Translations under genes and position numbers: made by a program | DNA from: Gemmatimonadota bacterium | GTDB lineage: Bacteria; Gemmatimonadota; Gemmatimonadetes; Gemmatimonadales; Gemmatimonadaceae | Reading direction: 5' to 3' | NCBI GenBank assembly: GCA_028287235.1 | Contig: JAQBQB010000022.1 | Span: forward strand, 1 to 64,000 | DNA: 64,000 bases | Notes under the pieces: generated by a model | Database searches by the model: none | Seen by the model: the letters and a program-made list of their open reading frames with translations, nothing else | Told to the model about the DNA's origin: nothing | Shown: positions 28,875 through 46,434 of the stretch, in pieces | Numbering within the stretch: the first letter of the stretch is position 1 | Layout: every line of letters begins with the position of its first letter

Positions 28875-28950
28875 CAGGAGACCTCGCCGGATCGTCGAGC
28901 TGCGTGCGGTCGAAGGGGATTCAGGCAAATCCGCAGTCGGGGCGCGTAAC

Positions 28951-28983
28951 TGCATATCGTTGATCTAGAACGATTTATGCAGA
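28951..28983. repeat. imperfect inverted repeat upstream of the first prepilin gene
   Basis: CTGCATA-TCGTT pairs with AACGA-TT-TATGCAG across GATCTAG. It lies 77 nt after the aldo/keto reductase stop and about 155 nt before the prepilin start, in an AT-richer spacer. No T run follows, so an operator is as likely as a terminator. The rest of 28875-29138 shows no gene. Confidence 0.4.
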
Positions 28984-29138
28984 TGCCCGAGTGGCGAGAC
29001 TGCGCGCGCGTTACGCCGCAGCCCGGAGGTGTAACGCGCACATAATGGCGCCCCCGTACCTTATCACTTCAATGAACGCCGTATTGCCCGCCTCAAGCCT
29101 GGCGAGCAGAACGGTTCTGTCCAGCGATACGAGCGCAA

Positions 29139-29834
29139 GTGAGTCAATTGGGAATTGTGACAACGAAGTCGACGATTCAGACGCAGCGCCGTGCTGGATT
29201 CACACTGATCGAAACGATCGTGACGGTCGGGCTGATCTCCGTACTTGCTGCGTTCGTCATTCCCACGGTCATTCAAAAGGCGTCAGCGGCGGATCCGGTC
29301 AAGGTTCAGAACGACCTGAATGCGATTCGGCAGGGGATGGAAACCTTCGCGGGCGACGTGAAGGCGGGCTTTCCGAACCAGGTCAGAGTGCTGACCTCAG
29401 TGCCGCTGACCACGAATCATCTCATCGATAGCACGACGTTGATCAGCGCCGGCCAGATCCTGATCTGGAACGGTCCGTACCTGGCGTCCACGATTGGGAC
29501 GAACCCGATGGACAGCCTGGCGACCGGATACTCCGGCTACATCATGAACCACATCCAGCGCTACGACATCATCAACAACGCCGGGGAGTTCTACGGCGGT
29601 GCTGGACCGACGCATTTTTCGGCGAACTCGACGTTGTTCGCTTCGTTGCGGATCGACGGACTCACGGCGCTTCAGGCGGCAATCATCAACGCCATGATCG
29701 ATGGTGTAGACGATGTGAACGTAGGGTCCGGATTGCTTCACGCGGGAGCGAACGCTTCGGGCCGTTTCCGCTTCGACCCACCTGTGAACGGCAACGTGAC
29801 GGCGTACTTCCTCGCGTCGCCGATCACTACGTGA
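29139..29834 (+). CDS. prepilin/pseudopilin 1 (MSHA/GspG-like)
   Basis: 231 residues from GTG 29139; GTG 29157 is also possible. Prepilin leader ...QRRAG|FTLIETIVTVGLISVLAA with Glu5 and Pro22 of the mature N-terminal helix, which anchors the subunit in the membrane before assembly. The globular part has the WNGPYL motif (GspG-like W-x-GPY), then LRIDGLTALQAAIINAMIDG and a C-terminal strand VTAYFLASP. Needs a PilD-type peptidase encoded elsewhere. First gene of a two-pilin unit, with GTGA overlap to the next; probably a minor pilin of the MSHA-like system. Confidence 0.87.
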   Translation: MSQLGIVTTKSTIQTQRRAGFTLIETIVTVGLISVLAAFVIPTVIQKASAADPVKVQNDLNAIRQGMETFAGDVKAGFPNQVRVLTSVPLTTNHLIDSTTLISAGQILIWNGPYLASTIGTNPMDSLATGYSGYIMNHIQRYDIINNAGEFYGGAGPTHFSANSTLFASLRIDGLTALQAAIINAMIDGVDDVNVGSGLLHAGANASGRFRFDPPVNGNVTAYFLASPITT

Positions 29835-30559
29835 CCCAGTCGCGGGAGCCTCGCATGCGCACCCTCCGCACCCTTCGTATACCTCGTGGCCAACGTCGCG
29901 GGTTTACCCTGGTCGAGACGATTGTCACCGTCGGCATTCTGTCCGTGCTGGCGGCGTTTGTCGTTCCGTCGGTGCTCAACAAAGCCGATAGCGCCGATCC
30001 GGTGAAGGTCGCCAACGACCTCAACTCCATCTCGACGGCGATTCAATCGTTCGCGTCGGACGTGAAGGGAACGCTGCCCGGCGACCTGGAAGATCTCACC
30101 GCGCCGTTGCTGACGAACGCGTCGTGCAACACGATCAACCCGTGCGACTCGACCGTCACGCACACCGACATCTATACGGCGCAGCAGGTGCGGCTCTGGC
30201 ACGGACCGTATCTGTCCGCGTCGATTGCGGCGGATCCTGCCGCATCGCTGCGCAGCGGGTACGTCGCCGAGATCCACAACATGCTCACGCGCTTCGATTC
30301 GTACAGCGGCGTGCCGGAGTTCTGCACGAGCATCGGTACGCAGACGGTGCCGTGCGCCGGATTCATCGCTTCGAACCCGCTGTACGTGGCGGTGCGGGTG
30401 GACAGCTTGAACTTGACGCAGGCGCTGACGGTGAACGCAATCATCGACGGGCCGAACGAGTCCCAGCCGGGGCTGCAGGGACGTTTCCGCTTCCCGAGTC
30501 CGCCATCGCCGACGGCGTTGGCGACTCCAGCCTACTTTCTGGCGACCCCGGTGCCGTAA
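29831..30559 (+). CDS. prepilin/pseudopilin 2
   Basis: 242 residues from GTG 29831, overlapping the previous stop. Leader RGQRRG|FTLVETIVTVGILSVLAA with Glu5. Shares the SADPVKVxNDLN segment, the LWHGPYL motif, the VRVDSLNLTQALTVNAIIDG segment and a C-terminal AYFLATPVP with pseudopilin 1, so it arose by tandem duplication. It adds four cysteines (ASCNTINPCDS, EFCTS, TVPCAG), likely disulfides in the exported domain. Probably a minor pilin. Confidence 0.87.
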   Translation: MTQSREPRMRTLRTLRIPRGQRRGFTLVETIVTVGILSVLAAFVVPSVLNKADSADPVKVANDLNSISTAIQSFASDVKGTLPGDLEDLTAPLLTNASCNTINPCDSTVTHTDIYTAQQVRLWHGPYLSASIAADPAASLRSGYVAEIHNMLTRFDSYSGVPEFCTSIGTQTVPCAGFIASNPLYVAVRVDSLNLTQALTVNAIIDGPNESQPGLQGRFRFPSPPSPTALATPAYFLATPVP

Positions 30560-30711
30560 CGTTTTGTTCCGTCCGCTAAAGTTTCGGACGATTGTGCCGA
30601 AACTCATTGATCAGCTTGTGTTTGTCGCTAGGGAAGTTGGTGCAAACTGTCCCTTGCCGGTTGGGCCGGTTTTCGTAAAATTGATGGGCTCAGGACGAAG
30701 CCTGCTACTAG
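30560..30711. promoter_or_regulatory. structured intergenic segment after the pilin pair
   Basis: Three local hairpins are visible: GTCCG/CGGAC near 30570-30590, GGGA-GTT / AAC-TCCC (30631-30653), and CCGG-TTGGG-CCGG followed by TTTTCG (30658-30674), which looks like a weak terminator. No gene supported. It may combine the 3' end of the pilin unit with leader RNA for the lipoprotein gene. Confidence 0.4.
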
Positions 30712-30852
30712 CTCCGGGACGCCTACGGGGCACCGAATGTGGCGGGTGGTACTCCGAGGTGTGGCGCCGCGAATGATGCCACATCGTACTTCGTGCTGAA
30801 TCCGGCGCTGTCGCCGGACAACCTATTTTTTGGGACGAGACTTCGACGATGA
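30712..30852 (+). pseudogene. possible remnant of a pilin C-terminus
   Basis: An open frame of 46 codons follows a TAG at 30709. It contains CGAANDATSYFVLNPALSPD, resembling the C-terminal strand of the two preceding pilins (TAYFLASP, PAYFLATP). Its TGA overlaps the ATG of the next gene by 4 nt, as in genuine coupled genes here. No leader or N-terminal helix is present, and the only start is GTG 30739. Read as a decayed pilin tail; chance resemblance is possible. Confidence 0.35.
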
Positions 30853-33656
30853 TCTCTCTCCGGTCGGTCACGACCTTCACCGCTGCGCTTGTTGTCGCCC
30901 TGAGTCTGTCGGGCTGCGCCGATACAGCGACAAATCCGCTCACCTCGAGTGGGCTACGCCCCTCCGGCGCGAGCTTTTCCAGCTCGAAGACGGTGACGGG
31001 AGCGATTGATTCCCGTGTGCTGCTCAACAAGGCCGGGGATGCGAGTCTCGAAGTCCATACCGGCACCTTCGACGACGCCACGAACGTTGCCGCGGCAAAC
31101 GGCACCCTGTCGTCGCTGACCTACACCGTCAAGAACGGATCGACGATGGTCACGACCCATACGGTCAAGTTCAACAAGACCGCGTCGAGCTACTTCGTGC
31201 ATTTGAATCTCTGTCAGTCGTCGAATGATGACGATGACGACGATGACGGAAGCAGCAGCGCGTCCGCGTGCTCGCAGCATTGGTTGCCAGCCTACAAGCT
31301 GACGGTGTCGGCGAACCTCAAGGGTTTGGGCTCGGACGGCAAATCCTCAGGCACGGCGAGCGGCGACGCGATCGTCATGTATCTGCCGGACATCGACCTG
31401 ACACAGCAGGCGCTCTCGATCGTTGGCGGCGGCGGATTGACGCCCGCGACCAGCGTGACGCCGGCTGTGCCGACGACCTTCTCGGTTCCCTTCCCCAATA
31501 ACAAGCCGATCGTGAACGGGCCGCTGGGTAGCGGCACCGTGCCAAACGGCGTCGGTGTGCAGACGACCTGTCTCGTCACGGTCGATGGACTACCGCAGCT
31601 GCCGTTTCCGAGCGGCGTGTACAACAAGTACACGAACCCGAACGCGTTCGGCTATGTCGGTGGGGTTACGCAAACCATCGCTGCCGGGACGAGCATACCC
31701 TGTCAGTTCACGCTGTCCTTGCCGGCTGGAGCGCACAAGATCGTCGTGACGGCGATCGTGCTCTATCCGGGCGATTACGACGCGACGAACAACAGCACCG
31801 CCACGTTCACGGTCACCGCGGCGCTTGGCCCGCCGGACATTGCAGCGGCCACGCTACAGCAACAGGCGTCGACGGGCGGTGCCCTTTCCCCGTTGGGCGG
31901 CTTCACGGTGATGGCCACCGTGCCGATCAACCTGGTGCAGTGGGTGTCGCTGGTCTCCGGTGCACCCACCGGGCCGATCGCGTGTACGCTGACGCTGACG
32001 AACACGAGCATCGCCAACTCCACGCCGGTGTCGTACAACGGCAGCGCGCCAAGCTCGTCGGCTTCGTGCGTCGTTCTGGTCACGTTTCCCGCAGCCGGCA
32101 CGTACACCATCACGAGCACGGTCGCTACGCCGGCAACGGTCACCGACCCGAATCTCCTGAACAACACGGCGACGAACACGCTGGTCGTGACGAGCGGGCC
32201 GCCGTCCAGCACCGTGGCGGTCGGTGACATCTCGTACGCCGACCCGTACAACGCCGGCGCCATCAATGCCCTCACGGCCACCGGCGCGCCCGAGGATACC
32301 GTGCACGCGGGCGACCTCGTCACCTACACGGCCGGGCTCAACGTCGCTGGGCTCACCAATACGAGCGCGGTGAACGTGACGTGCAAGGTCATGGAAGGAA
32401 CGACAGATCTGGCGAGCAGAATCACCTGGGTGACGGGACCGACCTTGAATGCCGTGACCGCGGGACAAAAGGCCTGCGTGTTCAAGCTCGCGTTCGACGA
32501 AACGGATAATGTGGCGCACAATCACACGATCACGGTGTCGGTGACGACTCCGGGGTCGACGAACAACGCCACGTCGGCGAGCACGAGTCTCAATGGAACG
32601 ATCAGCAACGTGGTGCGCGTGCACACGGTCGCCGCGCCGCTCCAGCGCGTTGGTGACGGCACGGCGGCGAACGCAGCCGCGATCGTGAACATGGACACGA
32701 CGAAACAATCGACCGCGGTGACGTTCCAAACGGTGATCGCGAACGCGACGACGCACGCGACGCGTGTGGATTGTGCACTGACCGCGAACACGCTGTTGCT
32801 GCAGGCGGCGGTCGGGACGGTGACGGGCGTGAACGTGCCGGCGAACGGATCGGCGAAATGCCAGTTCAAGGTGACCGCGGCCACGGTGGGATCGTATCCG
32901 TTGTCGGTCACCGTGACGCCGTCCTCGGGCGCCCCGCTCGACCCCATTCCCGCGGCTGACCATGTTGCGAACGGCGTCATTACGGTCGTGAGCACGGGCG
33001 CCTTCACGAGCATCAACCTGCAGTCGGTGGGCTTGGATCAGCGGTGGTACAGCGCGAGCGGCGGGCCGGCATTCCCGGTCTATTCGCTGAACGTTCAGCG
33101 ACTCGACATCAACCAGATGGCGCTGCTCGTTGTGCCGGCACAGGCGACGCTCGGTCACTTCACGCTCAACACGCAGATCGTCAACGGTGCGTACTCCTAT
33201 CCGGTAGCGAGCATCTCTGGAGATGTGCTTCGGTCGGAGACGAGCGGGACTCGCTGCTCGGATGTTGCGGCGCCGGCAGGTACGGCGTACGCGAATGCGC
33301 CGGCGGATTTCCCGACGGCCAACATCACGTTCGCGGCCGACATCTGCGCTGCGCCCACGACGGTGGGCACGAACACCGGGTACCAGGCGATCACCATCGA
33401 CTTTACCCAGTCGATGACCCACGCGATCATCAACCCCGATCCCAAGTTCGTTCTTGGCGGAGCGACCGCGGCGGATGTATATGTGAAGGTCGATCTGTTC
33501 TTCTCCCTGACGCCAGGGGGAACGAGCGATCATGTGTCGGCGATCATCCGGCTACCGCTGAACGCGCCCCGATCCGCCGACATCAACGACGGGAATGGTC
33601 ACGATCTGTGGACGCAGACCTCCGCGGCGCCGTTGGTGGTCACGTCGATTCCATGA
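30849..33656 (+). CDS. large CARDB/DUF11-like repeat lipoprotein in the pilin cluster
   Basis: 935 residues. Signal peptide with lipobox LSLSGC near residue 23. The mature protein is rich in Thr/Ser/Val/Asn and built of immunoglobulin-like beta repeats: AGAHKIVVTAIVLYPGDYDATNNSTATFTV and AAGTYTITSTVATPATVTDPNLLNNTATNTL are typical CARDB-type units ending in D-x-NN. Near residue 128 is a run of seven aspartates after a cysteine (NLCQSSNDDDDDDDG), a possible calcium site. It lies between prepilin groups on the same strand. A surface-exposed adhesin or stalk working with the pilus is inference. Confidence 0.78.
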   Translation: MISLRSVTTFTAALVVALSLSGCADTATNPLTSSGLRPSGASFSSSKTVTGAIDSRVLLNKAGDASLEVHTGTFDDATNVAAANGTLSSLTYTVKNGSTMVTTHTVKFNKTASSYFVHLNLCQSSNDDDDDDDGSSSASACSQHWLPAYKLTVSANLKGLGSDGKSSGTASGDAIVMYLPDIDLTQQALSIVGGGGLTPATSVTPAVPTTFSVPFPNNKPIVNGPLGSGTVPNGVGVQTTCLVTVDGLPQLPFPSGVYNKYTNPNAFGYVGGVTQTIAAGTSIPCQFTLSLPAGAHKIVVTAIVLYPGDYDATNNSTATFTVTAALGPPDIAAATLQQQASTGGALSPLGGFTVMATVPINLVQWVSLVSGAPTGPIACTLTLTNTSIANSTPVSYNGSAPSSSASCVVLVTFPAAGTYTITSTVATPATVTDPNLLNNTATNTLVVTSGPPSSTVAVGDISYADPYNAGAINALTATGAPEDTVHAGDLVTYTAGLNVAGLTNTSAVNVTCKVMEGTTDLASRITWVTGPTLNAVTAGQKACVFKLAFDETDNVAHNHTITVSVTTPGSTNNATSASTSLNGTISNVVRVHTVAAPLQRVGDGTAANAAAIVNMDTTKQSTAVTFQTVIANATTHATRVDCALTANTLLLQAAVGTVTGVNVPANGSAKCQFKVTAATVGSYPLSVTVTPSSGAPLDPIPAADHVANGVITVVSTGAFTSINLQSVGLDQRWYSASGGPAFPVYSLNVQRLDINQMALLVVPAQATLGHFTLNTQIVNGAYSYPVASISGDVLRSETSGTRCSDVAAPAGTAYANAPADFPTANITFAADICAAPTTVGTNTGYQAITIDFTQSMTHAIINPDPKFVLGGATAADVYVKVDLFFSLTPGGTSDHVSAIIRLPLNAPRSADINDGNGHDLWTQTSAAPLVVTSIP

Positions 33657-33699
33657 TGTGCAGATGTCGTAGTGCGTTGCGAACGCGACGGAGGAAGTA

Positions 33700-34335
33700 A
33701 TGGCTGCGTGGCGATCGAGAAAGGGTTTTACGCTGATGGAGGTAGCGGTGTCGGCGGTACTGATTGGTATCCTTGCCGCCGCTACGGTGCCAACGCTTTC
33801 CGAATTCGTCGAGACGCGCGACGCCGAGTCCACGGCGAAGACCCTGGCGACGATCGCCAATGGCGTCGCTGCGTTCAAGACCGCCGTCGTCGCCGGTGCG
33901 GCGGGAACGAACGTCTATCCGAAGAACATCTCGTATCTGACGAACGCGATTACAGCTACCAGCCTGAGCAGCTGCGGCACGACTTATTCAGCGGTGGGTC
34001 CAACCACAAACCTCGTCGCCAACTGGACGGCCAACGCGCCATTCGTTCCGTTCTACATCCAGGGGGGTGGCACGAGCGCGCTCGCGACACCGCTAGGGAT
34101 CATTCAGGACGCGATGATACGAAGTGGTACGACGGCAGTCGTGGGCACGCTGGCGATTCAGATGTTGGCGATCGACTCAATGGACGCCGTTCGCCTCGAG
34201 CGGGTGATCGACGGCGACGACGCCACGGGCGCGAATCTCACGACCGGGCTGCTCCGCATCACCTTCAACGGTTCGGGCACGGCTGCGCGTACGGCCGACA
34301 TCCAGTACGTCATGCCCGTCGCGAACAAGTGTTGA
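33700..34335 (+). CDS. prepilin/pseudopilin 3
   Basis: 211 residues, ATG 33700 with GGAGG 4 nt upstream. Leader MAAWRSRKG|FTLMEVAVSAVLIGILAA with Glu5. The globular part diverges most of the seven (NWTANAPFVPFY in place of W-x-GPY) but keeps the IDSMDAVRLERVIDGDD segment and ends IQYVMPVANKC with a terminal cysteine. It lies 43 nt after the lipoprotein gene and overlaps pseudopilin 4, so the three are probably one transcript. Confidence 0.86.
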   Translation: MAAWRSRKGFTLMEVAVSAVLIGILAAATVPTLSEFVETRDAESTAKTLATIANGVAAFKTAVVAGAAGTNVYPKNISYLTNAITATSLSSCGTTYSAVGPTTNLVANWTANAPFVPFYIQGGGTSALATPLGIIQDAMIRSGTTAVVGTLAIQMLAIDSMDAVRLERVIDGDDATGANLTTGLLRITFNGSGTAARTADIQYVMPVANKC

Positions 34336-34904
34336 CCAACCGCGCGCGACTCCGGAAGGGATTTACGCTCGCGGAGGTCATCGTCAGCATCACGCTGGTG
34401 GCGATTCTCTCCGCGGTCGTCGTTCCAGTGGTGCGCGGCCGCTTTCAGGACGGATACGAGAATTCGTTAATTCAAGAATTCTCTACTCTCGCGGCGGGCA
34501 TCAATGCCTACCGACAGGACATCGGCAAATACCCGCCGAAGCTCGATTACCTGTCGGCGATTCCCGCGGTAGGAACGGCGAAGGATTTTTGCGGAAACCT
34601 GCTGGCCGCGAGCGATTGGGCGAAGTGGCGCGGCCCGTACGTTTCACGGATGATCACGAACTCGCCCGCCTACTACGTGGTGGCGCAATCGGATTCCGTT
34701 CAAGATCTCCTGACTCGTCCGGCGGGTTTTCTGAACACGATCCAAATTCAGATCGTCGGTCCCGATACGGTCACGACCGTACATGTGGACCTGAAAATCG
34801 ACGGCTCCGTTCTGCGAACCGGCGGCACGCTGCTCTGGTCGTCGGGTGCCGGAGTGTCGACCGAGATGCGTTACGTCATTCCGACGCGCACCAACGGCTG
34901 TTGA
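34329..34904 (+). CDS. prepilin/pseudopilin 4
   Basis: About 191 residues from GTG 34329 or TTG 34332, both overlapping the previous stop (7 or 4 nt). Leader NRARLRKG|FTLAEVIVSITLVAILSA with Glu5 and a valine/proline-rich helix end. KWRGPYVSRM is the W-x-GPY motif; MRYVIPTRTNGC ends in a cysteine like pseudopilin 3, so the pair may share a terminal disulfide topology. It ends 9 nt before the convergent giant regulator gene. Confidence 0.85.
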   Translation: MLTNRARLRKGFTLAEVIVSITLVAILSAVVVPVVRGRFQDGYENSLIQEFSTLAAGINAYRQDIGKYPPKLDYLSAIPAVGTAKDFCGNLLAASDWAKWRGPYVSRMITNSPAYYVVAQSDSVQDLLTRPAGFLNTIQIQIVGPDTVTTVHVDLKIDGSVLRTGGTLLWSSGAGVSTEMRYVIPTRTNGC

Positions 34905-34913
34905 TTCGCCGAG

Positions 34914-37900
34914 CTAGCGCGAGTTGCGGGCCGCGAGCTGTAGCCGGAAATCGGTAACCGCGATCGTCGCAAAGGTCGCCCGACCACCGAGCCACACCTG
35001 CGCGGCCGCTGCGCTGACGTCGCCCAGGAAGGTCAGCGACGACCGCCACCGCGCCTGCCCGTCCACGAAGAACGTGACGGACCGATCGTCGCCGATCGAC
35101 AGCTCGAGAAGATGGCTCGCGTCATTTCCGAGAGACGTTGCGCGATCGGAGAACGTTTGCTGTCCGACTGAATAGACGAAGTTTCCGGACGCGGCGTCCC
35201 ACTGAATGGCGATGAGCGGAGCAAAGCGCGGCACGCGCGGGTTGAGTTGTGCCTCAGCCGTCGCGGGCACGAGCGCGATAGCGAACGTCGCCGCCGCGGG
35301 CCTGCCTGTGAACGGAGCGAACAGCCGCGCGCCGGTTCGCAGCCCCGCACGGAGCTGCACGCTCGAGCGCAACAGCACGCCGCTCTCCCATTCGAGATCC
35401 CCATTGGGGTAGAGCGCCGGCGACATCGTACCGGGCGCGCGCGCAACGTACGGCAGGGGCTCACCAAGCGGCAGCCAACGCGAATCAATTCGCGGCGCCG
35501 AGAACGAGTCTGCGATCGTGATCGACTGTGTCGTGCTCACCGCCAGCGCAACCGTGTCGGCGCGCCAGCCCGGGATCGACGCAATGACCGACGCATTGCC
35601 CGGTGCTCGACCCACCACGTGCAGCGAGGACGACGGCTTGTTCGTCGGATCGGCGGGCTGCACGATTTTGGGATCGAGAACGCTCCATCGAACCGAGCGC
35701 GCGGGGAGTGCAGCGCCGTCCACCTGGAGATTCAACAGCGTGAGGAGCGCAGTGTCGCCGAGTGCGAGTGATGAACCGCCAATGATGCGGAGCCGATCGA
35801 CGTACCCCTGGCGCGGTCCGCGCCATGCCGCGATGGAAAACTGTCGTCCCGCCGGAGTGAGACGCCGCACGTCTCCACCGAGCGACGGCCGCGTGTAAAC
35901 GGCGAGATCGCCATCGCGCGCCGACTCGAAGGCGAGCGTGCGTCCGTCGGGCGAAAACGTCGCGTGGTCCTCGTCGCCGCGGTCGGACACCGTCCACAAA
36001 CGCCCGTCGACGAGATCCTGCACGTAGACGCGCGATCCACCACCGCGGGAACTGGTGAAGGCGAGGAACCTGCCGTCGGCCGACCAGCTCGCGTGATAGT
36101 CGTCGGCAGCGCTGGACGTCACGTTGCGCGTGTCCGTTCCGTCGGCGCGACTGACGTACACGTCCCGTTGCCGGCTGGCGGCCGATCGAGCGACCCAGGA
36201 GATCGATGCTCCATCCGGCGACCACTGTGCTTCGGTGACCGCTCGTGCGGACGACGTGTCGAGCGGGATCGGCGCGGAGTTGGTTCCGATCCACTTCACG
36301 AACAGGTCGGAGTCGAGGCTGCCGTCGTCCAACGTTCGAGTCGAAGTGAAGAGCAGGGCGCGACCGTCGGGCGACCAACCCATCGCGACATTGTCGCCGG
36401 CAGCGACGGCGACTGGAATGGTGTCGCGCCGATCGGCCGAGATCACGAACAGGCTCTGCCCGTGAGACGTCACGCGCTCGACCGCCACATGCTGTTTCGT
36501 AGGCGACAACAATGGAGCCGTCCACGCTGACGGCAAGGAATCCAACCACGCGGGGCCCGGCATATCCGGCGGAGGCGGCTGCAATGGAGACGGCCCGCGC
36601 GAGGCCCCCGGCAACGATTGAAGCGCCGTCTGGCCGCGCACGCCCCGCTCCACGAGCACGAGGGTGTCCGACACTACCCGTGTAGCGGCTCGTGCCGCGA
36701 GGCCGCGACGCGCAACGATTCCGATCGCCACGATGATCACCGAGACGGCAATCGACATCAGCCATTGCTGCCGAGTGGCGACGCGAACACGGCTGCGCCG
36801 TGCGGGAGTCGCGGCGCTTGGTTGACGTGGCGGATCGGGGACCTCCGCCTCGGCCGCTACATCTTCCGGCAGGTCGATGGCATCGGCGGCATTGCGCGTG
36901 TCCGGTACATCGGGCGGCTCGTCGACGGGTGCCGTCGTGGTGCCGGGAAGCGCCAACTGACCGCGTCCGAACGCCGTCAGCAACGATTCGATCTCGCGTC
37001 GCGCGCGTTCCTCTGGCGCGAACGTGAGCGCGATGCTCAGCAGCCGCGCCACTTCGGCCGCCGCGCCGACGGCCGCCGCCGCGAAGGCACCGGCACGCGC
37101 GTGTACGAATGCCTCTGAGCCGCGTGCGGCCAACGCATACAGGGCCGCGAGCTCCGCATCGGTACGGGTGTTCTCCGCGCGGAGCGCGTCCGCCGCCCAG
37201 CTGGCGAGCAATGCTCGGCCGGCCAGCCCACTGGTCTCGACCAGAAAGGACAGCGCGCAATCGTGCGCCAACACGAAGCCGTCTCCGACCGTGCGAAGTA
37301 ATCCAGCACGGGTCAGCGCTTCCGCCGCCTCGAGCGCCGCGGACTCGGGCAGATGCGCCGCGGCGGCGAGCAGCCGGAGCGATGCACTTCGCTCGAAAAG
37401 CGACGCCGCAAAGAAGACGCGGCGTTGGGAGGACGTCGCGGCCTGCAGCCTGGCCCAGAGGATGTCGCGGAGCGGCGCCGGCGTGTCCGTCGGCGCGTCG
37501 CCTGCCGCGGCGCGGCGCGCGAGATCGATCGCGGCGAAGGGAAACCCGTTGGTGGCGCGGGCGATCCGGTCGACGTCGATGAGAGATTCGTGATGTGATC
37601 CGCGGAGCGCTTCGCGCACGATGGACGCCGCTTCATCGACCGACAACGGCTCGAGCACGATGCGCATGTCCGGGGCACCGTCCTCCGCGACGACGAGCGC
37701 ACGCAGCCGTTCGACGACCTGCGACGCGCTCCGCTCGGTGCGGTACGCAATCACGAGCATCACCGGGGACTGGTGCAGGCGGCGGGAAAGGTACGTCAGC
37801 AGATCCAACGTGGACGCCGATGCGTGCTGTGCATCGTCGATGATCAGGCAGACCGGCCGCTCGTACGCCACCGCGTCGATGAGCGCGGCGATGCCTTCGA

Positions 37901-39005
37901 AGAATCCAAGGCGTCCCGTGGCGTCCTCGATCGGCGCAACGGCGGGAAGCTCAAACGAGTCGCGTAACTCGGGAAGCAGCCGTGCTGCCTCGGCGAGCAG
38001 ATGCCGGCTCGCGCCCGAAATGCCGGGCGCGCGAACGATGGGCCGGAGCGCCTCGGCGATCGCGATGTATGGAAGTCCGCCGCCGCCGGCCGCCTCGCGG
38101 CCGCGGAAGAGCAGCACGTTGCCGAGATTGCGCGCGCGTTCGGTGAATTCGTCCAACAGGCGCGATTTTCCGAGCCCAGAGCTGCCTTCGACGAGAGTGG
38201 TCGCGCCGCGTTCGGCGCGGAGGCTCGTGAAGGCCTGGAGCATCTTCGAGAGCTCGGCGTCGCGCCCGACAAAGCTGGAGCTTCCTGTCCCATTGACGCG
38301 TTCGGCGGACTGCGGAGTTGTGCTTTCCTGTTTGCGGCGCTTCTGCAGGCGGTCGATCAGCGATCGAATCGCCGCGGGCATTTCAACGTCGAGCTCGTCG
38401 TGGAGCCGCGCGGCGAACTGGAGCGCCGAAGTGAGCGCCTGCGCGGGACGTCCGGCGGCGACGAGAGTGTTCGCCTCGAAAATCGCGGCTTCTTCGTCGT
38501 ACGGCGCGACGGCGGCCAATCGTTCCGCGAAGCGCAGGGCGTCACGTGCCCGGCCATCGCTCGCCGCAGCCCCGCCGGCTGCGAGCAGCGCCTGCTGGAA
38601 CCGGGCGCGGAGGCGGACCCGCTCGCTGTCGGACCAACGATCGAAGGCCGGCTCGCCGAGCTCGAGTCCTTCGAGGAACTCGCCGGCATACGCTTCGACG
38701 GCCTCATCCCATCGCCCGGAGTCGCAGGCCGCGAGAAACGAGTCGCGATCGATTCGGACCAGCCCGTCGCCGGCGATGGCGACATGTTCCCGGTCCTGGG
38801 GAAGCACCTCTTCTCCGAGGACGGTCCGGAGCCGGTGCAGCGACTGGCGGAAGGCGTTGCGTGCCTTTTCCTCTGGAATCTCGCCCCAAAGGATGCTGAT
38901 GAGCTCGTCACGCCTCGCCCGTCCGCGGACGGCGAGGTAGGCCAGCATGGCCAGCGACTTTCCGGGCCCTAGGCCTGGAAGAGTGCGGCCGTCGCTGGCC
39001 ACCAC
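34914..39005 (-). CDS. giant SARP/BTAD regulator fused to AAA ATPase, membrane helix, PD40 propeller and lectin-like tail
   Basis: 1363 residues from GTG 39005 (a second GTG at 39008). Order: winged-helix DNA-binding region and BTAD helical repeat (1-225; RRDELISILWGEIPEEKARN, AFRQSLHRLRTVLGE). An AAA/AfsR-like ATPase follows with Walker A GSSGLGKS (~274-281) and Walker B VCLIIDDAQ (~385-393), then helical repeats to ~690. One membrane helix lies at ~748-767 (WLMSIAVSVIIVAIGIVARR). Several PD40/TolB-like repeats follow (WSPDGRALLFTS, WSADGRFLAFTS, FSPDGRTLAFES), then a concanavalin-like beta domain ending ATFATIAVTDFRLQL. It could bind DNA inside the cell and sense a ligand outside. Sits amid the prepilin genes. 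Confidence 0.82.
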   Translation of the reverse strand: MVASDGRTLPGLGPGKSLAMLAYLAVRGRARRDELISILWGEIPEEKARNAFRQSLHRLRTVLGEEVLPQDREHVAIAGDGLVRIDRDSFLAACDSGRWDEAVEAYAGEFLEGLELGEPAFDRWSDSERVRLRARFQQALLAAGGAAASDGRARDALRFAERLAAVAPYDEEAAIFEANTLVAAGRPAQALTSALQFAARLHDELDVEMPAAIRSLIDRLQKRRKQESTTPQSAERVNGTGSSSFVGRDAELSKMLQAFTSLRAERGATTLVEGSSGLGKSRLLDEFTERARNLGNVLLFRGREAAGGGGLPYIAIAEALRPIVRAPGISGASRHLLAEAARLLPELRDSFELPAVAPIEDATGRLGFFEGIAALIDAVAYERPVCLIIDDAQHASASTLDLLTYLSRRLHQSPVMLVIAYRTERSASQVVERLRALVVAEDGAPDMRIVLEPLSVDEAASIVREALRGSHHESLIDVDRIARATNGFPFAAIDLARRAAAGDAPTDTPAPLRDILWARLQAATSSQRRVFFAASLFERSASLRLLAAAAHLPESAALEAAEALTRAGLLRTVGDGFVLAHDCALSFLVETSGLAGRALLASWAADALRAENTRTDAELAALYALAARGSEAFVHARAGAFAAAAVGAAAEVARLLSIALTFAPEERARREIESLLTAFGRGQLALPGTTTAPVDEPPDVPDTRNAADAIDLPEDVAAEAEVPDPPRQPSAATPARRSRVRVATRQQWLMSIAVSVIIVAIGIVARRGLAARAATRVVSDTLVLVERGVRGQTALQSLPGASRGPSPLQPPPPDMPGPAWLDSLPSAWTAPLLSPTKQHVAVERVTSHGQSLFVISADRRDTIPVAVAAGDNVAMGWSPDGRALLFTSTRTLDDGSLDSDLFVKWIGTNSAPIPLDTSSARAVTEAQWSPDGASISWVARSAASRQRDVYVSRADGTDTRNVTSSAADDYHASWSADGRFLAFTSSRGGGSRVYVQDLVDGRLWTVSDRGDEDHATFSPDGRTLAFESARDGDLAVYTRPSLGGDVRRLTPAGRQFSIAAWRGPRQGYVDRLRIIGGSSLALGDTALLTLLNLQVDGAALPARSVRWSVLDPKIVQPADPTNKPSSSLHVVGRAPGNASVIASIPGWRADTVALAVSTTQSITIADSFSAPRIDSRWLPLGEPLPYVARAPGTMSPALYPNGDLEWESGVLLRSSVQLRAGLRTGARLFAPFTGRPAAATFAIALVPATAEAQLNPRVPRFAPLIAIQWDAASGNFVYSVGQQTFSDRATSLGNDASHLLELSIGDDRSVTFFVDGQARWRSSLTFLGDVSAAAAQVWLGGRATFATIAVTDFRLQLAARNSR

Positions 39006-39118
39006 GGATGGGGAGCCAAGGACCTTGAAATCGAACAGCGGAGTGTTGTTTCGCAGCGTCGTCGCCGAGCGTCCTAGGTCATGATCGCAACCTGAGCGAT
39101 CAGATGAAACAAGCTACG

Positions 39119-39128
39119 CTAACGTTAG
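39119..39128. promoter_or_regulatory. perfect palindrome CTAACGTTAG
   Basis: A 10-bp perfect palindrome, about 110 nt before the giant regulator start. It contains the TAACG word that recurs in the phased arrays downstream, once on each strand. Confidence 0.45.
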
Positions 39129-39150
39129 TTATGACAGATGATTGCGCCGT

Positions 39151-39190
39151 CCGTAACACTTGGTCAAAGGCGACTAACGACCGAGTAACG
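39151..39190. promoter_or_regulatory. phased TAAC array, copy 1
   Basis: CCGTAAC (TAAC at 39154), TAACG (39175) and TAACG (39186): spacings of 21 and 11 nt, two turns and one turn of the helix. The identical layout recurs 150 nt downstream. SARP-type regulators bind direct repeats spaced about 11 nt, so this is a candidate target of the adjacent BTAD protein. Confidence 0.55.
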
Positions 39191-39300
39191 CCTCGCGGCG
39201 ATAATTCCTTCATCAAAACGTGTGGAACGCTGTCGTCCGGCGCGCGTGGCGTGACGGGCTCAAGTGGCCAGAACGGGGACAATTCGAATGAGACCTTGTC

Positions 39301-39340
39301 CCGTAACGGAGTGAATACGTCGAATAACGCGGCCGTAACC
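39301..39340. promoter_or_regulatory. phased TAAC array, copy 2
   Basis: CCGTAAC (TAAC at 39304), TAACG (39325) and TAAC (39336), again 21 and 11 nt apart. It ends 66 nt before the start of pseudopilin 5, the right distance for activation of that promoter. The region 39006-39406 holds no convincing gene otherwise; the frame upstream of the prepilin leader reads as low-complexity, non-coding sequence. Confidence 0.55.
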
Positions 39341-39406
39341 CCGGCCGAATACAGTTCCGCTCAGGTGGATGGCCGACGGGTTGGGACTGCCGAAAAACTG
39401 AGCTTC

Positions 39407-40030
39407 ATGAATTACAGGCACTTTGCGCGTGCGTCGACTCTTGGATTCACCCTTCCCGAAATCCTTGTCTCGCTCAGCCTGATCGCAGCATTAGCGGCAG
39501 TCGTCGTTCCGGCGATGTTGAGCCAGGTGAAGAAGGGCGATCCGACGCGTGTGGGGAACGACGTGGTGAACATCAGAAGTGCGGTGGAGGCATTCCTGGG
39601 CGATGTGCGACGGTATCCGGGGGGTTTCAGCCAGCTTACGCTTCCGATTGCTCTGACTGATCAGCCGCTCTCGGGTACGATGCCGGCCACCTACTTCTAC
39701 GGAACTGCAGAGGTCTCGAGGTGGCGGGGATCGTACCTCGGCGAAGATGCAACCGCGGCGCTAAAGACGGGCTTTGGTTGGAAGTTCGAGAGTCAGTTCG
39801 CAAGCGCAGGGTACGGATCGTCGGGCACCGTAGCGTCCACTACGTCACAGAAGTACCTGTTGCTCACCATCGGCGTGACGGACGTGGCAAGTGCGCAGCA
39901 GCTCGATGCGATGTTCGACGATGGTGATCTCAACGCCGGGTTGATTCGTTATCGGGTTTGTACGGCGGCGCCGGCGTGCACGGCGGGCGCATTAGACACC
40001 GTGAAGTTTTTGCTGATGCCAATTTACTGA
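39407..40030 (+). CDS. prepilin/pseudopilin 5
   Basis: 207 residues from ATG 39407 (MNYRHFARASTLG|FTLPEIL). The same frame is open to 39104, but the extra 101 residues lack coding character and would bury the leader. Glu5 and the VVVPA helix end are present. Globular features: KKGDPTRVGNDVVNIRSAVEAF, RWRGSYLGED (W-x-GPY variant), GVTDVASAQQLDAMFDDGD and a C-terminal VKFLLMPIY. The two cysteines near the end (VCTAAPACTAG) may pair. It lies under the phased TAAC arrays, so it is the likeliest target of the giant regulator. Confidence 0.85.
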   Translation: MNYRHFARASTLGFTLPEILVSLSLIAALAAVVVPAMLSQVKKGDPTRVGNDVVNIRSAVEAFLGDVRRYPGGFSQLTLPIALTDQPLSGTMPATYFYGTAEVSRWRGSYLGEDATAALKTGFGWKFESQFASAGYGSSGTVASTTSQKYLLLTIGVTDVASAQQLDAMFDDGDLNAGLIRYRVCTAAPACTAGALDTVKFLLMPIY

Positions 40031-40128
40031 TGCGACGAGCGCTAGTTCAGCTCTGCAGTTTCTGTTGATCGATTTGGTTCAGTTCGCAACGCAGGTTCAT
40101 TGACGTTCGCCCCTTTTCGGAGATGATC

Positions 40129-40725
40129 ATGAAGAAGCAAGTTCGCCGCAATGGTTTCACGCTCCCTGAAATTCTCGTCACGGTGACCGTGGTTGCCGTT
40201 CTCGCAGCCGTAGTCGTTCCCGCGGTCACGCAGTATGTCAGCAAGGGCGATTCGCCGGCGACGCAGACCGATCTGACCCAGATCCGGAATGCGATCACCG
40301 CGTACTCGGCCGATACGCGCGCCTATCCCGGCACGTTCTACGATCTCGAGAGCAGCCCGTCTGGCCTGACGTCGTGGAAGGGACCGTACACCGGTGCGAC
40401 GCTGGTTGGTGCGACGGGCGCCGGAACGTTCACGAGCGCTGGTTTGAACGTCAAGCTTGGACCGGCCATCACATCGGGCAGCGGCTATGTGACGACCCCG
40501 TTGGTGTTCGTCGTCACCAGCGCGACCTGTCAGGATCTGTGGAACCTCGACAAGACGATCGACGGCGGCACGGGCAGCAGCGGTCAGGCGGACGTGAACT
40601 CCACGTCTGGATCGGTTCAGTGGGGAACCGCCTGCAATGCGACGACCAACACCGGCACGAGCGCCGCGACGGCGCCGGCTTCGGCGGCGGCGATCACCCT
40701 GCGCCTGCTGACGATCGGCTCCTGA
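40129..40725 (+). CDS. prepilin/pseudopilin 6, major-pilin candidate
   Basis: 198 residues from ATG 40129, 6 nt after GGAG; ATG 40123 touches the ribosome binding site and is unlikely. Short leader MKKQVRRNG|FTLPEILVTVTVVAVLAAVVVPA with Glu5. SWKGPYTGAT is the W-x-GPY motif. Two cysteines (ATCQDLWNLDKTIDGG and GTACNATT) are placed as in pseudopilin 7, with which it is roughly co-linear along its whole length. Short leader, own ribosome binding site and Thr/Gly/Ala-rich surface are typical of an abundant subunit; that role is inference. Confidence 0.88.
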   Translation: MKKQVRRNGFTLPEILVTVTVVAVLAAVVVPAVTQYVSKGDSPATQTDLTQIRNAITAYSADTRAYPGTFYDLESSPSGLTSWKGPYTGATLVGATGAGTFTSAGLNVKLGPAITSGSGYVTTPLVFVVTSATCQDLWNLDKTIDGGTGSSGQADVNSTSGSVQWGTACNATTNTGTSAATAPASAAAITLRLLTIGS

Positions 40726-40878
40726 TTCTTCGCTGGGCTGGCGGTTCGGGGGCGGCGGCGAAGCGTCGCCTCGCCCCTGGATACGCCGCTACGATCGGAT
40801 TGGACGGTTCGTGAACAACAACTTGCAGTCTCGCGGCGAATCCATTCGCCCGCAGATCGAAATTTTGGGGGGCAACTC

Positions 40879-41484
40879 ATGATGAAGCGCGTGCGTCGCA
40901 GTGGTTTCACACTGCCTGAAGTCCTGGTGACCGTCACGGTCGTTGCGGTACTCGCCGCGGTCGTCGTGCCGGCAGTAACGCAGTACGTCGGTAAGGGCGA
41001 CGCTCCGGCGACGCAGACCGATCTCAACGAGATCCGCAACTCCATCACGGCGTACGTGTCGGACACGCGAAAGTATCCCACCACCTTCTATGATCTTTCG
41101 GCCGGTGGATCGGGTACGGTTACGGGTTGGAAGGGGCCATACAACACGGTCCAGCTGGCCGGGGCAACTGCGGCCGGTACGTTCACGAGTGCCGGTTTGA
41201 ACATCAAGCTGGGCGCCGCATTCACCAACTCAGGTGGTTACCTCACCACGCCGTTGGTGTTCAACTCGTCGACCGCGACCTGCCAGGATCTCTGGAACCT
41301 GGATAAGTCGATTGACGGCGGAACGGGGCTCATCGCCGATGCAGCCACGATGTCGACGAGTGGTCTCGTTACCTGGGTCACCGCGTGCAACGTCGCGAAC
41401 GGTACGGGCAACAACGCGGCTACGGCATTGCTTACTGCCGGCAACCCGGTAATTACGTTGCGAGTTCTCGCGGTCGGAACCTGA
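40879..41484 (+). CDS. prepilin/pseudopilin 7, tandem paralogue of 6
   Basis: 201 residues, ATG 40879 (MMKRVRRSG|FTLPEVLVTVTVVAVLAA) preceded by GGGGGG. It shares VVVPAVTQYV-KGD-PATQTDL, GWKGPYN, AGTFTSAGLN-KLG and ATCQDLWNLDK-IDGGTG with pseudopilin 6. The divergence is mainly in the C-terminal 50 residues. A strong terminator follows, so genes 5-7 or 6-7 form one unit. Either copy may be the filament subunit, or they may be expressed alternately. Confidence 0.88.
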   Translation: MMKRVRRSGFTLPEVLVTVTVVAVLAAVVVPAVTQYVGKGDAPATQTDLNEIRNSITAYVSDTRKYPTTFYDLSAGGSGTVTGWKGPYNTVQLAGATAAGTFTSAGLNIKLGAAFTNSGGYLTTPLVFNSSTATCQDLWNLDKSIDGGTGLIADAATMSTSGLVTWVTACNVANGTGNNAATALLTAGNPVITLRVLAVGT

Positions 41485-41514
41485 TCTCGCAGAATCGCTC
41501 TACGATCAAATGGA

Positions 41515-41546
41515 AGCGCGGCGACCTCATGGTCGCCGCGCTTTTT
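41515..41546. terminator. intrinsic terminator between pilin 7 and the pilus operon
   Basis: AGCGCGGCGACC-TCAT-GGTCGCCGCGCT, a 12-bp perfect stem followed by TTTTCTT. It lies directly between convergent genes. Confidence 0.85.
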
Positions 41547-41547
41547 C

Positions 41548-43281
41548 TTAGGGAGCAATCTGAAATGCTCCCATCGAGAACGGCGCTAGCGGCAGTCCGT
41601 GGGCGATCAGATCCGCGCGGCTGATCGTCGTTTGTCGGAGCGTTGCCGTCGCGGCCAACGCCGCCTGATTCTCGGGCGTCAACTCGCGCCGGCTCATGAT
41701 TTTCGGGGTGTTCCGCAAGAACGGATCGTTGCGCACGAGCTGCCGGCCCCAGTTCACGAGATCGGCCGGGTAGATCACGACGTCGTACGGCAACGTCGAC
41801 ATCCATTCCAAGCCGTTCCGATATGGTGAGATCACCTGCGCGACATTTCGCGCACGGAGCGGGAGCTGCACGAAGAGCGAAATGGCAAGCGACGCCACGA
41901 TGAGGCGCGTCGCCGTTCGCGCGCCGGTCGCGGTGGCGAGACGCTCCACGCCGACTGCCGCGAGTAGCGCAATGATTCCCAGCGCGTCGTAGATGAACCG
42001 ATACCCCCACCCCTCCCCCTGAGGCGTGGGCATGAGCATTCGCGCGACGATGATCAGCACGACACTCAACGATGCGTCACGAGAGAAAGTGTCCAGCCGA
42101 TCCCACGACAGCATGGCGACGATCATCAAGAGGATGACGAGCGGGGCGTTCCAGCTCGGAACGAGCGCCAAGTGTAGTCCGGTCGTCAGGCTCTGAACCG
42201 CCGTAGGAAGGTGGAACAAGCCCTTCGCGACGGCCGCGGTTGCGCCCGGTGATGCGAACGCCGGCGCGCTCTCGTTCGACACGCGGGCCAGATATCCGTA
42301 CCAATACGACAACCCGCCGGCGTACACGGCCGCGACGTACCCCAGAAACGCGTAGCGCCGGTTTCTCAGGTACCGCAACAGAAAGGGCGGAATGAGAAGC
42401 GCGTGAGGAAAGGGGCTATGTACGCCCAGCGCCGCAACGCCGACCCACGGGAGCAGTGCGTTGGACCACTTCCTTTCGTCGACGTAGAGCCAGAGCCAGG
42501 CGAGCGAGAACAACAGATGCGTCGACATCGAGAACATGGTCATCGACATGAACAGCACCTGCGTCGACGTCGCAGTGAAGAGAGCGGCGAGATACGCTCG
42601 CAACGGCCGCGACGGCCACACTTTTCGCGCGATCGACGCAACGAGCCAAACCGACAATCCGGCCGCAACGGGGCCGCCCAGCCGGTCGAGACCGAGCGCA
42701 ATGAAGCCCGCGTTATACAGCGAATGAATCGGTAAGTAGGACAGCCGCCAGGTACAGCCGGGTGTCGCGGAGATGGACGTAGGCGTCAACGCCGCGATCC
42801 ACCGGCACCACTCGGGCGCCACGACCGCCGACGCATGCCCGCGCGAATAGATCACTGCTTGAAACCACGCCGAGTACTCGTCATCCGCGAGGAGAAACCG
42901 GTGGAACACCAATGTGATTCCGCCCCACACCACCGCGGCGACCAATAGTGAGCCGAGTGCGATTACCCAGGGACGATAGCGCGGCTGCGAAAGCTCGACG
43001 TCAACCGAACCCAGCTGTCGTGTGCATAAGAGGACGACCACCGCGAAACCGGCTACGAGGCAGAGCGGCGCTGGTTCGATGCGCACGAACTGCTCGAAGA
43101 ACAGACTGAAGCCGATATAGTCGCGCATCGAGATGCGCGGTATCGCGATCAGGCCCGCGGCCACGACACCCAGCACGCAAACGGCCGCGAGACGAACGGC
43201 GCGTCTGGCGGCCTCACGATCGGAGTCGATCGGCGGTGTGAAGGCGATCTCCGCGACTCCGTTGCGCGCTGGTGCGTGCAC
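41548..43281 (-). CDS. GT-C-like multi-pass membrane protein at the end of the pilus operon
   Basis: 577 residues from GTG 43281, 4 nt after the secretin-domain lipoprotein gene, so it is the last gene of the pilus operon. About ten to twelve membrane helices. The first large loop holds FHRFLLADDEYSAWFQAVIY, with an acidic DDE like GT-C glycosyltransferases. The C-terminal soluble part contains YNVVIYPADLVNWGRQ-like sequence (TLPYDVVIYPADLVNW). Paralogous to 18349-20271 along its full length. Operon position suggests it modifies a pilin or exported protein, for example by glycosylation; that is inference and no lipid-linked sugar genes are nearby. Confidence 0.7.
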   Translation of the reverse strand: MHAPARNGVAEIAFTPPIDSDREAARRAVRLAAVCVLGVVAAGLIAIPRISMRDYIGFSLFFEQFVRIEPAPLCLVAGFAVVVLLCTRQLGSVDVELSQPRYRPWVIALGSLLVAAVVWGGITLVFHRFLLADDEYSAWFQAVIYSRGHASAVVAPEWCRWIAALTPTSISATPGCTWRLSYLPIHSLYNAGFIALGLDRLGGPVAAGLSVWLVASIARKVWPSRPLRAYLAALFTATSTQVLFMSMTMFSMSTHLLFSLAWLWLYVDERKWSNALLPWVGVAALGVHSPFPHALLIPPFLLRYLRNRRYAFLGYVAAVYAGGLSYWYGYLARVSNESAPAFASPGATAAVAKGLFHLPTAVQSLTTGLHLALVPSWNAPLVILLMIVAMLSWDRLDTFSRDASLSVVLIIVARMLMPTPQGEGWGYRFIYDALGIIALLAAVGVERLATATGARTATRLIVASLAISLFVQLPLRARNVAQVISPYRNGLEWMSTLPYDVVIYPADLVNWGRQLVRNDPFLRNTPKIMSRRELTPENQAALAATATLRQTTISRADLIAHGLPLAPFSMGAFQIAP

Positions 43282-43285
43282 GTGG

Positions 43286-43828
43286 CTAGGGCATGCCCGG
43301 CTTGTTCGTCCGCGACCGTACGATCAGCTCCGCCGTGCCGCGTCCCACGCCGAACGCCTTCATGATGGCTTCGACGGAAAGCGAATCGACGTTCACGGGG
43401 AGCGAATAGAACACCACCGCGTTGTTCGTCGGGGGTCGCATGTTCGGGGTCGGACTCTCGAGCGTCAGGTTGGCGAGCGACAGAACGGTCTGAATTGCCT
43501 GCGACACCGGGACGTCGATCAAGTGGAGTCGAACTTTCTTGTTGATCTCCGGAGAATAGACGAGCGTGACTCCGGCTTTGTTCGCGAGAAAATCGAGGAT
43601 CGGCCGAACATCGACCTCGGCGCCGTGCGTGTCCACCTCCACGCGAGCCTCCCGCGCCGTGTCCGGCGAGAGCAAGGGCAGCGGCGTGACGGCCGGCGGC
43701 GGCGAGGACGCAGGCGTCGAGATCTGCTGTTGCGGCAGCGCGGGCAGCGTTGCCGTCATGAATGGCTCCGGTGCGCGATGACAGGCGACGATCGCCACGG
43801 CAACCAGCAAGATGGCCGGACGCGCCAA
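43286..43828 (-). CDS. lipoprotein with secretin/TonB N-terminal (STN) domain
   Basis: 180 residues from TTG 43828. This start is chosen because AAGGAGGG lies 7 nt upstream and it gives a clean lipoprotein signal peptide, MARPAILLVAVAIVAC. A GTG at 43861 overlapping the previous stop is the alternative. A Pro/Ser-rich linker precedes the STN domain: VRPILDFLANKAGVTLVYSPEINKKVRLHLIDVPVSQAIQ, the short periplasmic module of secretins. There is no secretin pore domain. It probably assists or extends the MshL-like secretin periplasmic ring. Confidence 0.75.
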   Translation of the reverse strand: MARPAILLVAVAIVACHRAPEPFMTATLPALPQQQISTPASSPPPAVTPLPLLSPDTAREARVEVDTHGAEVDVRPILDFLANKAGVTLVYSPEINKKVRLHLIDVPVSQAIQTVLSLANLTLESPTPNMRPPTNNAVVFYSLPVNVDSLSVEAIMKAFGVGRGTAELIVRSRTNKPGMP

Positions 43829-43857
43829 TCGGCGGCCCTCCTTCTGTCCGTGATTGT

Positions 43858-45003
43858 TCACGGGGCGAGCCTCCGCAACGTCGTGATGTATTTCTTCATA
43901 CCGTCGATCGTCTCCGCGGGGGTCTTTCCGGGCGCGAGATCCACGAACCGTTGGTATTCGCCAATGGCGCCGCGAATATCCTGCTGCGACTGGAGAAACT
44001 TGCCGTATTCGTAGTGCACGGTAGGGTCGGTCGGAGCGATGCGGCCGGCTTCGTCGTACATGCGGCGGGCGCTGGCGGTGTCGCCGATCGCGCGGTACTC
44101 GGCAGCCTGCCGGAGGCGAACGGGCACGTTCGATCCATCGAGCTGCAGCGCGCGTGCGAACGCAGTCATCGCTTCGGCATGATGGCCGATCGCGTTGAAC
44201 GAGTCGCCGAGGTTCACCCACGCGTTCACGTTTTTCTCATCGCGCTTGATCGCCTGCTGAAACATCTGCGAGGCCCCGACCTGATTGCCGCGCGAGGACA
44301 TGAGCACGCCGTAATTGTTGAACGCGTCGGCCGGCGCTTGTGGCAGCGCGATGGTCTTCTCGTACAGCTCCTGCGCTCGATCGAGGTTGCCGCGCACCTG
44401 CTCGGCGTAGGCTTGCTTGAACAGCGAGTCCGCGGGATTGGTGCTCGTGGGACTGACGACGACGCGTACCGGCGTGGCCGCGGGGCTCGTCTGTTTCACT
44501 GTCGGCGGCGTGGGTGCCGGCGTGGATGCGGGCGTGGGTGCAGGCGCAACGCGAGGCGCCGTGGCCGAGTCGCGCACCGGCGCTGGCGGTTTGTCTTCGG
44601 CGACCGTCTTCGCCGCAGTTACCGCAGGCTTCGGCGCCGGCGCTTCGACGGTTGCCGGCCGGTCGACTTTCGCCGGGCTCGCGCCTTTCGACTGCGCGGG
44701 CACGGACGGAGCGCTGGCGACCGCGGTGGGCAACACCGGCGCAGCGACGACGGGGGCGCGCTGAATCGACGCAACCGGCGGGCGCGACGCCGGCGTCTTG
44801 CGAATGCGGGCGACGATGGCGCCGGCGATGACCAGACTGACGAGTACTACGCCGCCGACGAAGACTGCGGTACTCGAACGGCGTCCCTTCACTCCCTCCG
44901 GAAAGGGGAAAAACGTATCGGCTCGCGGAACCGCCTGCCGCTGACCGCTGCGCTGCGTTCGTTCGCGTTGCGCTTCCTTGAGCGCATCGCTTATGAGGCT
45001 CAT
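43858..45003 (-). CDS. MshN-like TPR protein with membrane anchor
   Basis: 381 residues. It opens MSLISDALKEAQRERTQR, the short cytoplasmic tag common at the start of such pilus/secretion TPR proteins. A membrane helix follows (TAVFVGGVVLVSLVIAGAIVA, ~46-66), then a long Pro/Ala/Thr linker and tetratricopeptide repeats in the C-terminal half (ADSLFKQAYAEQVRGNLDRA, AFNNYGVLMSSRGNQVGAS, AWVNLGDSFNAIGHHAEAM). It overlaps the MshM-like gene by 4 nt. Position and layout fit MshN, a periplasmic scaffold for secretin or pilus assembly. Confidence 0.8.
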   Translation of the reverse strand: MSLISDALKEAQRERTQRSGQRQAVPRADTFFPFPEGVKGRRSSTAVFVGGVVLVSLVIAGAIVARIRKTPASRPPVASIQRAPVVAAPVLPTAVASAPSVPAQSKGASPAKVDRPATVEAPAPKPAVTAAKTVAEDKPPAPVRDSATAPRVAPAPTPASTPAPTPPTVKQTSPAATPVRVVVSPTSTNPADSLFKQAYAEQVRGNLDRAQELYEKTIALPQAPADAFNNYGVLMSSRGNQVGASQMFQQAIKRDEKNVNAWVNLGDSFNAIGHHAEAMTAFARALQLDGSNVPVRLRQAAEYRAIGDTASARRMYDEAGRIAPTDPTVHYEYGKFLQSQQDIRGAIGEYQRFVDLAPGKTPAETIDGMKKYITTLRRLAP

Positions 45004-46433: not shown

Positions 46434-46434
46434 G

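Follow-up and report, generated by a model that had tools for sequence, protein, structure and literature searches.

Introduction

SARPs and STAND ATPases are known as cytoplasmic switches, and regulators of the ToxR/CadC type, in which a DNA-binding end inside the cell, one helix and a sensor outside are joined in one chain, are generally described as active while anchored in the membrane. AfsR of Streptomyces, a large SARP that controls antibiotic production, has the layout SARP-NOD-TPR and is described without a membrane helix or an ectodomain; its NOD and TPR parts hold it in check until ATP binding relieves the restraint (PMC10936776). Published SARP operators are built from direct repeats with a period of 11 or 22 bp, the one at the 3' end standing 8 bp away from the −10 element (PMC10936776). 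A 2023 survey of the ToxR/CadC-type class (PMC10269533) mentions none of BTAD, SARP, WD40 or the Gemmatimonadota in its main text. Here we describe a regulator gene in a stretch of 64,000 nucleotides from a Gemmatimonadota bacterium of the Gemmatimonadaceae (assembly GCA_028287235.1, contig JAQBQB010000022.1, positions 1 to 64,000; “the window” in the following). The gene lies within a gene cluster for an MSHA-like type IV pilus. Its product is likely to be a membrane-anchored activator of the AfsR type that is dedicated to the pilin genes of this pilus and carries a periplasmic sensor.

Results

The regulator gene (34914..39005, minus strand) is a single unbroken frame of 1363 codons counted from a GTG. 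It encodes, in this order, a SARP DNA-binding/BTAD unit, a STAND-type ATPase, a disordered linker, one membrane helix, a TolB-like propeller, an immunoglobulin-like (Ig-like) domain and a weakly concanavalin-like tail. A first-pass annotation, made from the letters of the window alone, had listed a 1363-residue frame with such modules; the frame is intact and real, and its upper coordinate was placed one codon too far (39008 instead of 39005). Pfam, motifs and hydropathy bore out the BTAD domain, the Walker A and B motifs, the PD40 repeats and the strong helix of that annotation, which we place at residues 747–765. When the segments were searched with hidden Markov models (HMMs), as it had suggested, BTAD (residues 99–220, 42 bits, 1.1e-10), AAA_16 (245–418, 74 bits) and three PD40 repeats (78 bits) were found. 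The laminin-G/concanavalin families gave no match in the window protein and significant yet weak matches in 2–3 of 46 relatives, which leaves the proposed lectin-like domain a weak assignment.

In the SARP domain the winged-helix part (about 38736–39056, minus strand) precedes the BTAD part (38346..38711, minus strand). Trans_reg_C was not reported by Pfam for the window protein, the first strand of which sits upstream of the GTG. The profile of the SARP part matches the AfsR structures 8k60, 8jke and 8hvr, and Foldseek aligns the structure model to AfsR with a TM-score of 0.73–0.74 (0.73 by target length). The ATPase core (37752..38273, minus strand) carries GSSGLGKS as Walker A and VCLIIDD as Walker B, and Foldseek matches this part to Apaf-1, to a STAND-TPR protein (6mfv) and to MalT. 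The regulator thus possesses the P-loop NTPase, winged helix and helical repeats by which STAND proteins are recognized. In the AlphaFold model the first half of the chain folds into a winged helix, a helical BTAD part, the ATPase and additional helical repeats, a linker of low confidence and one long helix.

The second half begins with an all-beta propeller of the TolB/DPPIV kind, as indicated by profile searches, the structure model and structure searches (residues 775–1066, with the PD40 repeats; 35808..36683, minus strand). Its TolB equivalog score of 97 bits falls short of the cut-off (343), placing it outside TolB proper with the propeller alone in common. The tail (34917..35804, minus strand) is beta-rich in the model; according to family profile searches it comprises an Ig-like domain of the Big_2 type, supported across the family in 24 of 46 members, followed by the weakly assigned concanavalin-like beta domain. 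Searching the tail against PDB and Pfam recovered the Ig part, the concanavalin part being weak here too; the structure search with the whole ectodomain was dominated by the propeller and barely probes the tail.

The strongest hydrophobic stretch of the regulator (mean Kyte-Doolittle 2.32) follows the disordered linker at residues 747–765 (36711..36767, minus strand). Hydropathy, orthologue alignment and AlphaFold all predict a single transmembrane helix at this site, which is kept in position in all eight orthologues though the helix sequence drifts. This is in agreement with the membrane tethering suggested by the first-pass annotation. A cytoplasmic DNA-binding end would place the sensor in the periplasm. 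The regulator is therefore predicted to unite a DNA-binding domain, a single transmembrane helix and an extracytoplasmic sensor in one chain.

The promoter between the regulator and the divergent prepilin gene contains a motif, TAAYG-N6-TNACG, that is directed towards the prepilin. Its repeats are 11 bp apart, and an 8-bp gap (counted with the second repeat taken as the heptamer RTNACGN) separates them from a −10-like hexamer in which A2 and T6 do not vary. The geometry of this candidate operator is that of published SARP operators. The copy closest to the regulator (39175..39205, plus strand; TAACG-N6-TAACG, 11-bp period, 8-bp gap, GATAAT) has a leave-one-out score of 22.2, the best in the 64 kb, and is the sole exact match in the 5.7-Mb genome. 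The same layout was found immediately upstream of the prepilin start at 39407 (39325..39355, plus strand; 17.5, second in the window) and before the other prepilin operon at 29139 (29032..29062, plus strand; 9.0, third in the window). If one mismatch was allowed the window gave four matches compared to 0.55 expected, a count reached in 0 of 100 shuffles, and three of the four precede the prepilin operons at 39407 and 29139. No such operator turned up before the machinery genes of the window.

A leave-one-locus-out weight matrix gave the divergent promoter the top rank in six of the eight loci (window, G003, G005, G011, G134 and G132; 17.6–26.4); as a control, 555 kb of wider-family loci scored 12.0 at most. 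In G191 the best match (23.3) lies before a second prepilin operon of the cluster and not in the divergent promoter. The exact pattern occurs 14 times in 12 genomes and matches the divergent promoter in all eight genomes that carry the regulator, where one of 12 exact matches falls off the cluster. A genome with the pilus and without the regulator (G041) gave no exact match, and a reversed control pattern gave two matches in the 12 genomes.

The linkage of regulator and pilus is strict within this clade. In eight of eight genomes with intact flanks (the window, G003, G005, G011, G132, G134, G191 and G197) the regulator stands divergent to a prepilin inside an MSHA-like cluster, in most cases with MshL/M/N-like genes on the same contig. 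Among the 179 family genomes searched, the mshI-like gene and strong full-length regulator matches occur in exactly the same nine. MshM orthologues occur in these nine and in G189, an 80% complete genome in which the 4.5-kb contig breaks off within the neighbouring prepilin, before the regulator site. Within the genus of the window three genomes contain regulator and pilus and three contain neither. The whole block (28875..53839) is flanked by an aldo-keto reductase gene (28874) and a TolB-like gene (53840). The two are separated by 24.97 kb in the window and by 9 bp in G004, and in G001 they are neighbours; G004 and G001 both lack regulator and pilus. Regulator and pilus, about 25 kb in total, come and go as one unit within the genus. 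In G002 the aldo-keto reductase gene adjoins an S41 peptidase gene. We also note a second copy of the C-terminal half of the regulator in G134 (contig 232, L072 3–1421), at a contig end and adjoining another prepilin set.

To place the regulator in its family, a profile of the tail alone was searched against Gemmatimonadota genomes; it matched in 69 of 395 genomes and 33 of 138 genera, and most of the matching frames are about 1320–1400 amino acids long. We inspected 49 frames, including the window protein and its orthologues, and found SARP, ATPase, propeller and tail by HMM in 44, a candidate helix between ATPase and propeller in 47, and Walker A in 47, counting G011 with arginine in place of the lysine. 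In many relatives the SARP-ATPase match lies in a frame of about 760 amino acids that leaves the membrane and propeller part uncovered. In a tree of 47 members the pilin-linked ones form one group (support 100), which requires one change; 0 of 500 shuffles were as low. No prepilin adjoined the approximately 40 further family members of the phylum whose neighbourhoods were inspected, and a link to pilins across the whole architecture was rejected on these grounds. By-eye inspection of the loci revealed no shared neighbour of the wider family. Subclades of this family sit in fixed housekeeping neighbourhoods, ygfZ/EF-G-like and folE/Trm112-like (L139, L140, L141, L147 and L150; L135, L144, L073, L148, L151 and L155), which probably reflects shared descent. 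The genome of the window encodes five further SARPs in which BTAD is succeeded by a membrane helix and then by TPR-like or Kelch-like parts (contigs 22, 18, 28, 20 and 6; L010–L014). Judged from such sequences, tethering of SARPs is common here and the layout of the regulator is recurrent.

Seven full-length orthologues of 1356–1386 amino acids were obtained from independent assemblies of three genera of the Gemmatimonadaceae. Their identity to the window protein is 37–57%: 57 and 50% in two other genomes of the same genus, 37–43% in two further genera. A search of public genome contigs yielded one orthologue only, apparently the public entry for G005 (JAICWO01). The orthologues open with a strand FxLxLLGxPSL, and the window has this strand in frame 5' of the GTG, as LFDFKVLGSPSVV. 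For the upstream strand the window offers no ATG, GTG or TTG, only a CTG at 39038 or 39056, with a stop at 39116. The true start is probably upstream of the GTG, at a non-ATG codon at about 39036–39056, and the missing standard start codon likely reflects initiation at CTG or an error in the DNA. This question leaves the remaining conclusions on the regulator unaffected.

The divergent prepilin (39407..40030, plus strand) was assigned by its N_methyl motif and leader position. Its listed open reading frame begins at 39104, about 300 bp too early; the stretch 39104–39406 holds two of the candidate operators and is probably non-coding. Two more prepilins with T2SSG/N_methyl matches follow (40123–40725 and 40879–41484; 40123..41484, plus strand). 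On the other side of the regulator, open reading frames and Pfam identify two convergent prepilins (33700–34335 and one ending at 34904; 33700..34904, plus strand), and Pfam two further ones (29139–29834 and 29831–30559; 29139..30559, plus strand). Between these pairs lies a gene for a 935-residue lipoprotein-like product (30849..33656, plus strand), which recurs at this place among the prepilins of the corresponding clusters in G003 and G005 and has no Pfam or NCBIfam match. A membrane glycosyltransferase-like gene (41548..43281, minus strand) rests on a weak match in a profile search.

The machinery genes (43858..53671, minus strand), likewise assigned by profile searches, encode a TPR protein (MshN-like), an MshM-like ATPase, an MshL-like secretin, MshJ-like and MshI/PilM-like proteins, GspF/MshG and MshE. 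With MshL, M, I, G and E and several prepilins the gene set is of the MSHA type; we use the label MSHA-like since the scores of MshL, GspE and GspF are below the NCBIfam cut-offs. The MshE-like ATPase (51965–53671) carries an N-terminal domain that binds cyclic di-GMP (NF053729, 62.6 bits, cut-off 38), which makes additional control of the pilus by cyclic di-GMP probable.

Discussion

The domains, the helix, the candidate operator and the co-occurrence can be read from the sequences, and we infer from them how DNA binding, activation, topology and sensing might proceed. The N-terminal SARP domain would bind the 11-bp direct repeats just 5' of the prepilin −10 element and recruit RNA polymerase. 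By analogy to AfsR, the STAND ATPase would keep the SARP domain inactive until its nucleotide state or oligomerisation changes. The flexible linker and the single helix would tether the SARP-ATPase half to the inner membrane, and the propeller with its Ig/concanavalin-like tail could act as a sensor in the periplasm, the occupancy of which would determine the state that the ATPase adopts. The most sensible candidates for the signal are pilin that is unassembled or glycosylated, and a glycan of the envelope. As the operators stand before pilin genes only and the clusters with the regulator carry glycosyltransferase/ligase-like genes, the level of pilin or a pilin glycan is a reasonable candidate. 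The “external ligand” of the first-pass annotation lacks support: the sensor would face the periplasm, and the secretin in the cluster implies an outer membrane that a ligand from outside would have to cross. Its proposal that the regulator controls the neighbouring prepilins fared better; the conserved divergent placement, the shared presence and absence and the SARP-type candidate operator before prepilin genes all argue for it. The co-occurrence of architecture and pilins which it proposed to survey holds for one clade, and fails for about 40 other family members.

Several observations weigh against this model. Positive charge flanks the helix on both sides, and the predicted topology follows from the more positive N side only. 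One must keep in mind that the motif was drawn from seven of these same loci and that the loci are related, belonging to one clade in three genera. Therefore only the leave-one-out, second-operon, G011 and genome-wide specificity results count as independent. In G197 the divergent site ranks third with a leave-one-out score of 4.9, and the second match there lies before another prepilin. A raw scan for direct-repeat periods was clearly above shuffles at 21 bp only and marginal at 11–12 bp, which is why we relied on leave-one-out scoring. The orthologue of G011 (L037 7903–11979), otherwise intact, has the Walker A motif GPPGIGRT; with arginine replacing the lysine, ATP hydrolysis may not be essential. 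Finally, G041, which belongs to another family, possesses a complete cluster of this pilus kind and no such regulator, so that the regulator is an addition to the pilus and not a universal part of it.

A more specific version of our model names the signal: propeller and tail might read no ligand from outside but pilin, whether free or assembled, or its glycan, in the inner membrane or periplasm, and the SARP domain would tune the supply of pilin as PilS/PilR does for PilA. The restriction of the window's operators to prepilin operons, the co-occurrence of the regulator with pilus genes, the glycosyltransferase/ligase-like genes in the clusters and the protein partners bound by TolB-type propellers (according to the titles of PDB entries) would fit such feedback. 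Pilins are absent from the neighbourhood of most relatives that share this architecture, however, so their ectodomains would sense something else, and we hold this version only tentatively, at somewhat less than even chances. A different route from membrane to DNA would be cleavage, with the cytoplasmic SARP-ATPase half being cut from the membrane instead of acting anchored. The long disordered linker beside the helix is a natural region for this; no dedicated protease is seen in the cluster, however, and ToxR/CadC-type regulators are generally described as acting anchored, so we regard release by proteolysis as unlikely.

That the wider family is not tied to pili could also mean that the regulator acts mainly elsewhere and merely resides in the pilus block. 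Its constant place and orientation in three genera, its loss together with the block and the cluster-specific candidate operator make this very improbable. A still simpler explanation, that two neighbouring genes were fused by an assembly or sequencing error, could appeal to the unusual length alone. Independent assemblies show the same fusion, however, in seven orthologues and in more than 35 other relatives. A frameshift or join near residue 740, in particular, was ruled out by the orthologues, all of which run through this position without a break. The regulator is a single gene, and the chance of an artefact is practically nil.

Compared to AfsR, the regulator shares the succession of SARP, STAND/NOD ATPase and helical repeats, the match of the structure models and the 11-bp repeats 8 bp from the −10 element. 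It differs by its predicted anchor, its propeller/Ig/concanavalin-like sensor and its place beside pilin genes. Given the candidate helix in 47 of 49 relatives, we regard it, by sequence, as a variant of the large SARPs and not as a plain AfsR. With the ToxR/CadC type it has in common the predicted arrangement in one chain, whereas a lone OmpR-type winged helix stands there in place of the SARP/BTAD unit and STAND ATPase switch. The tethered SARPs of the same genome (SARP-helix-TPR and SARP-helix-Kelch) also hold a SARP unit by one helix, yet have neither the STAND ATPase nor the PD40/Ig/concanavalin tail. The pilus itself resembles the Vibrio MSHA pilus in its MshE-like ATPase with a cyclic di-GMP-binding N-terminus, in MshG, MshI/J-like, MshL, MshM and MshN-like proteins and in its several prepilins. 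It differs in the scores mentioned and in the SARP regulator inside the cluster; to our knowledge, none is known inside the cluster of Vibrio. Our search of the open-access subset of the literature surfaced neither a match to the layout of the regulator nor a defined regulator of type IV pilin genes in Gemmatimonadota.

Conclusions

If our model is true, the regulator represents a defined control of type IV pilin genes in Gemmatimonadota, and the candidate operator provides a concrete target for a binding test. One chain would relay a signal through the membrane to a STAND switch and from there directly to the DNA, without a kinase or partner. On a wider scale there is an about even chance that the phylum possesses a whole class of such one-protein, membrane-spanning NLR-like (STAND) activators. 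Their propeller/Ig/concanavalin ectodomains would read an envelope signal and switch ATPase and SARP domain, and in one clade the class would have been recruited to serve as the dedicated switch of a pilus block, itself gained and lost as a unit. The dozens of relatives in differing neighbourhoods would then be the material for asking what these ectodomains sense.

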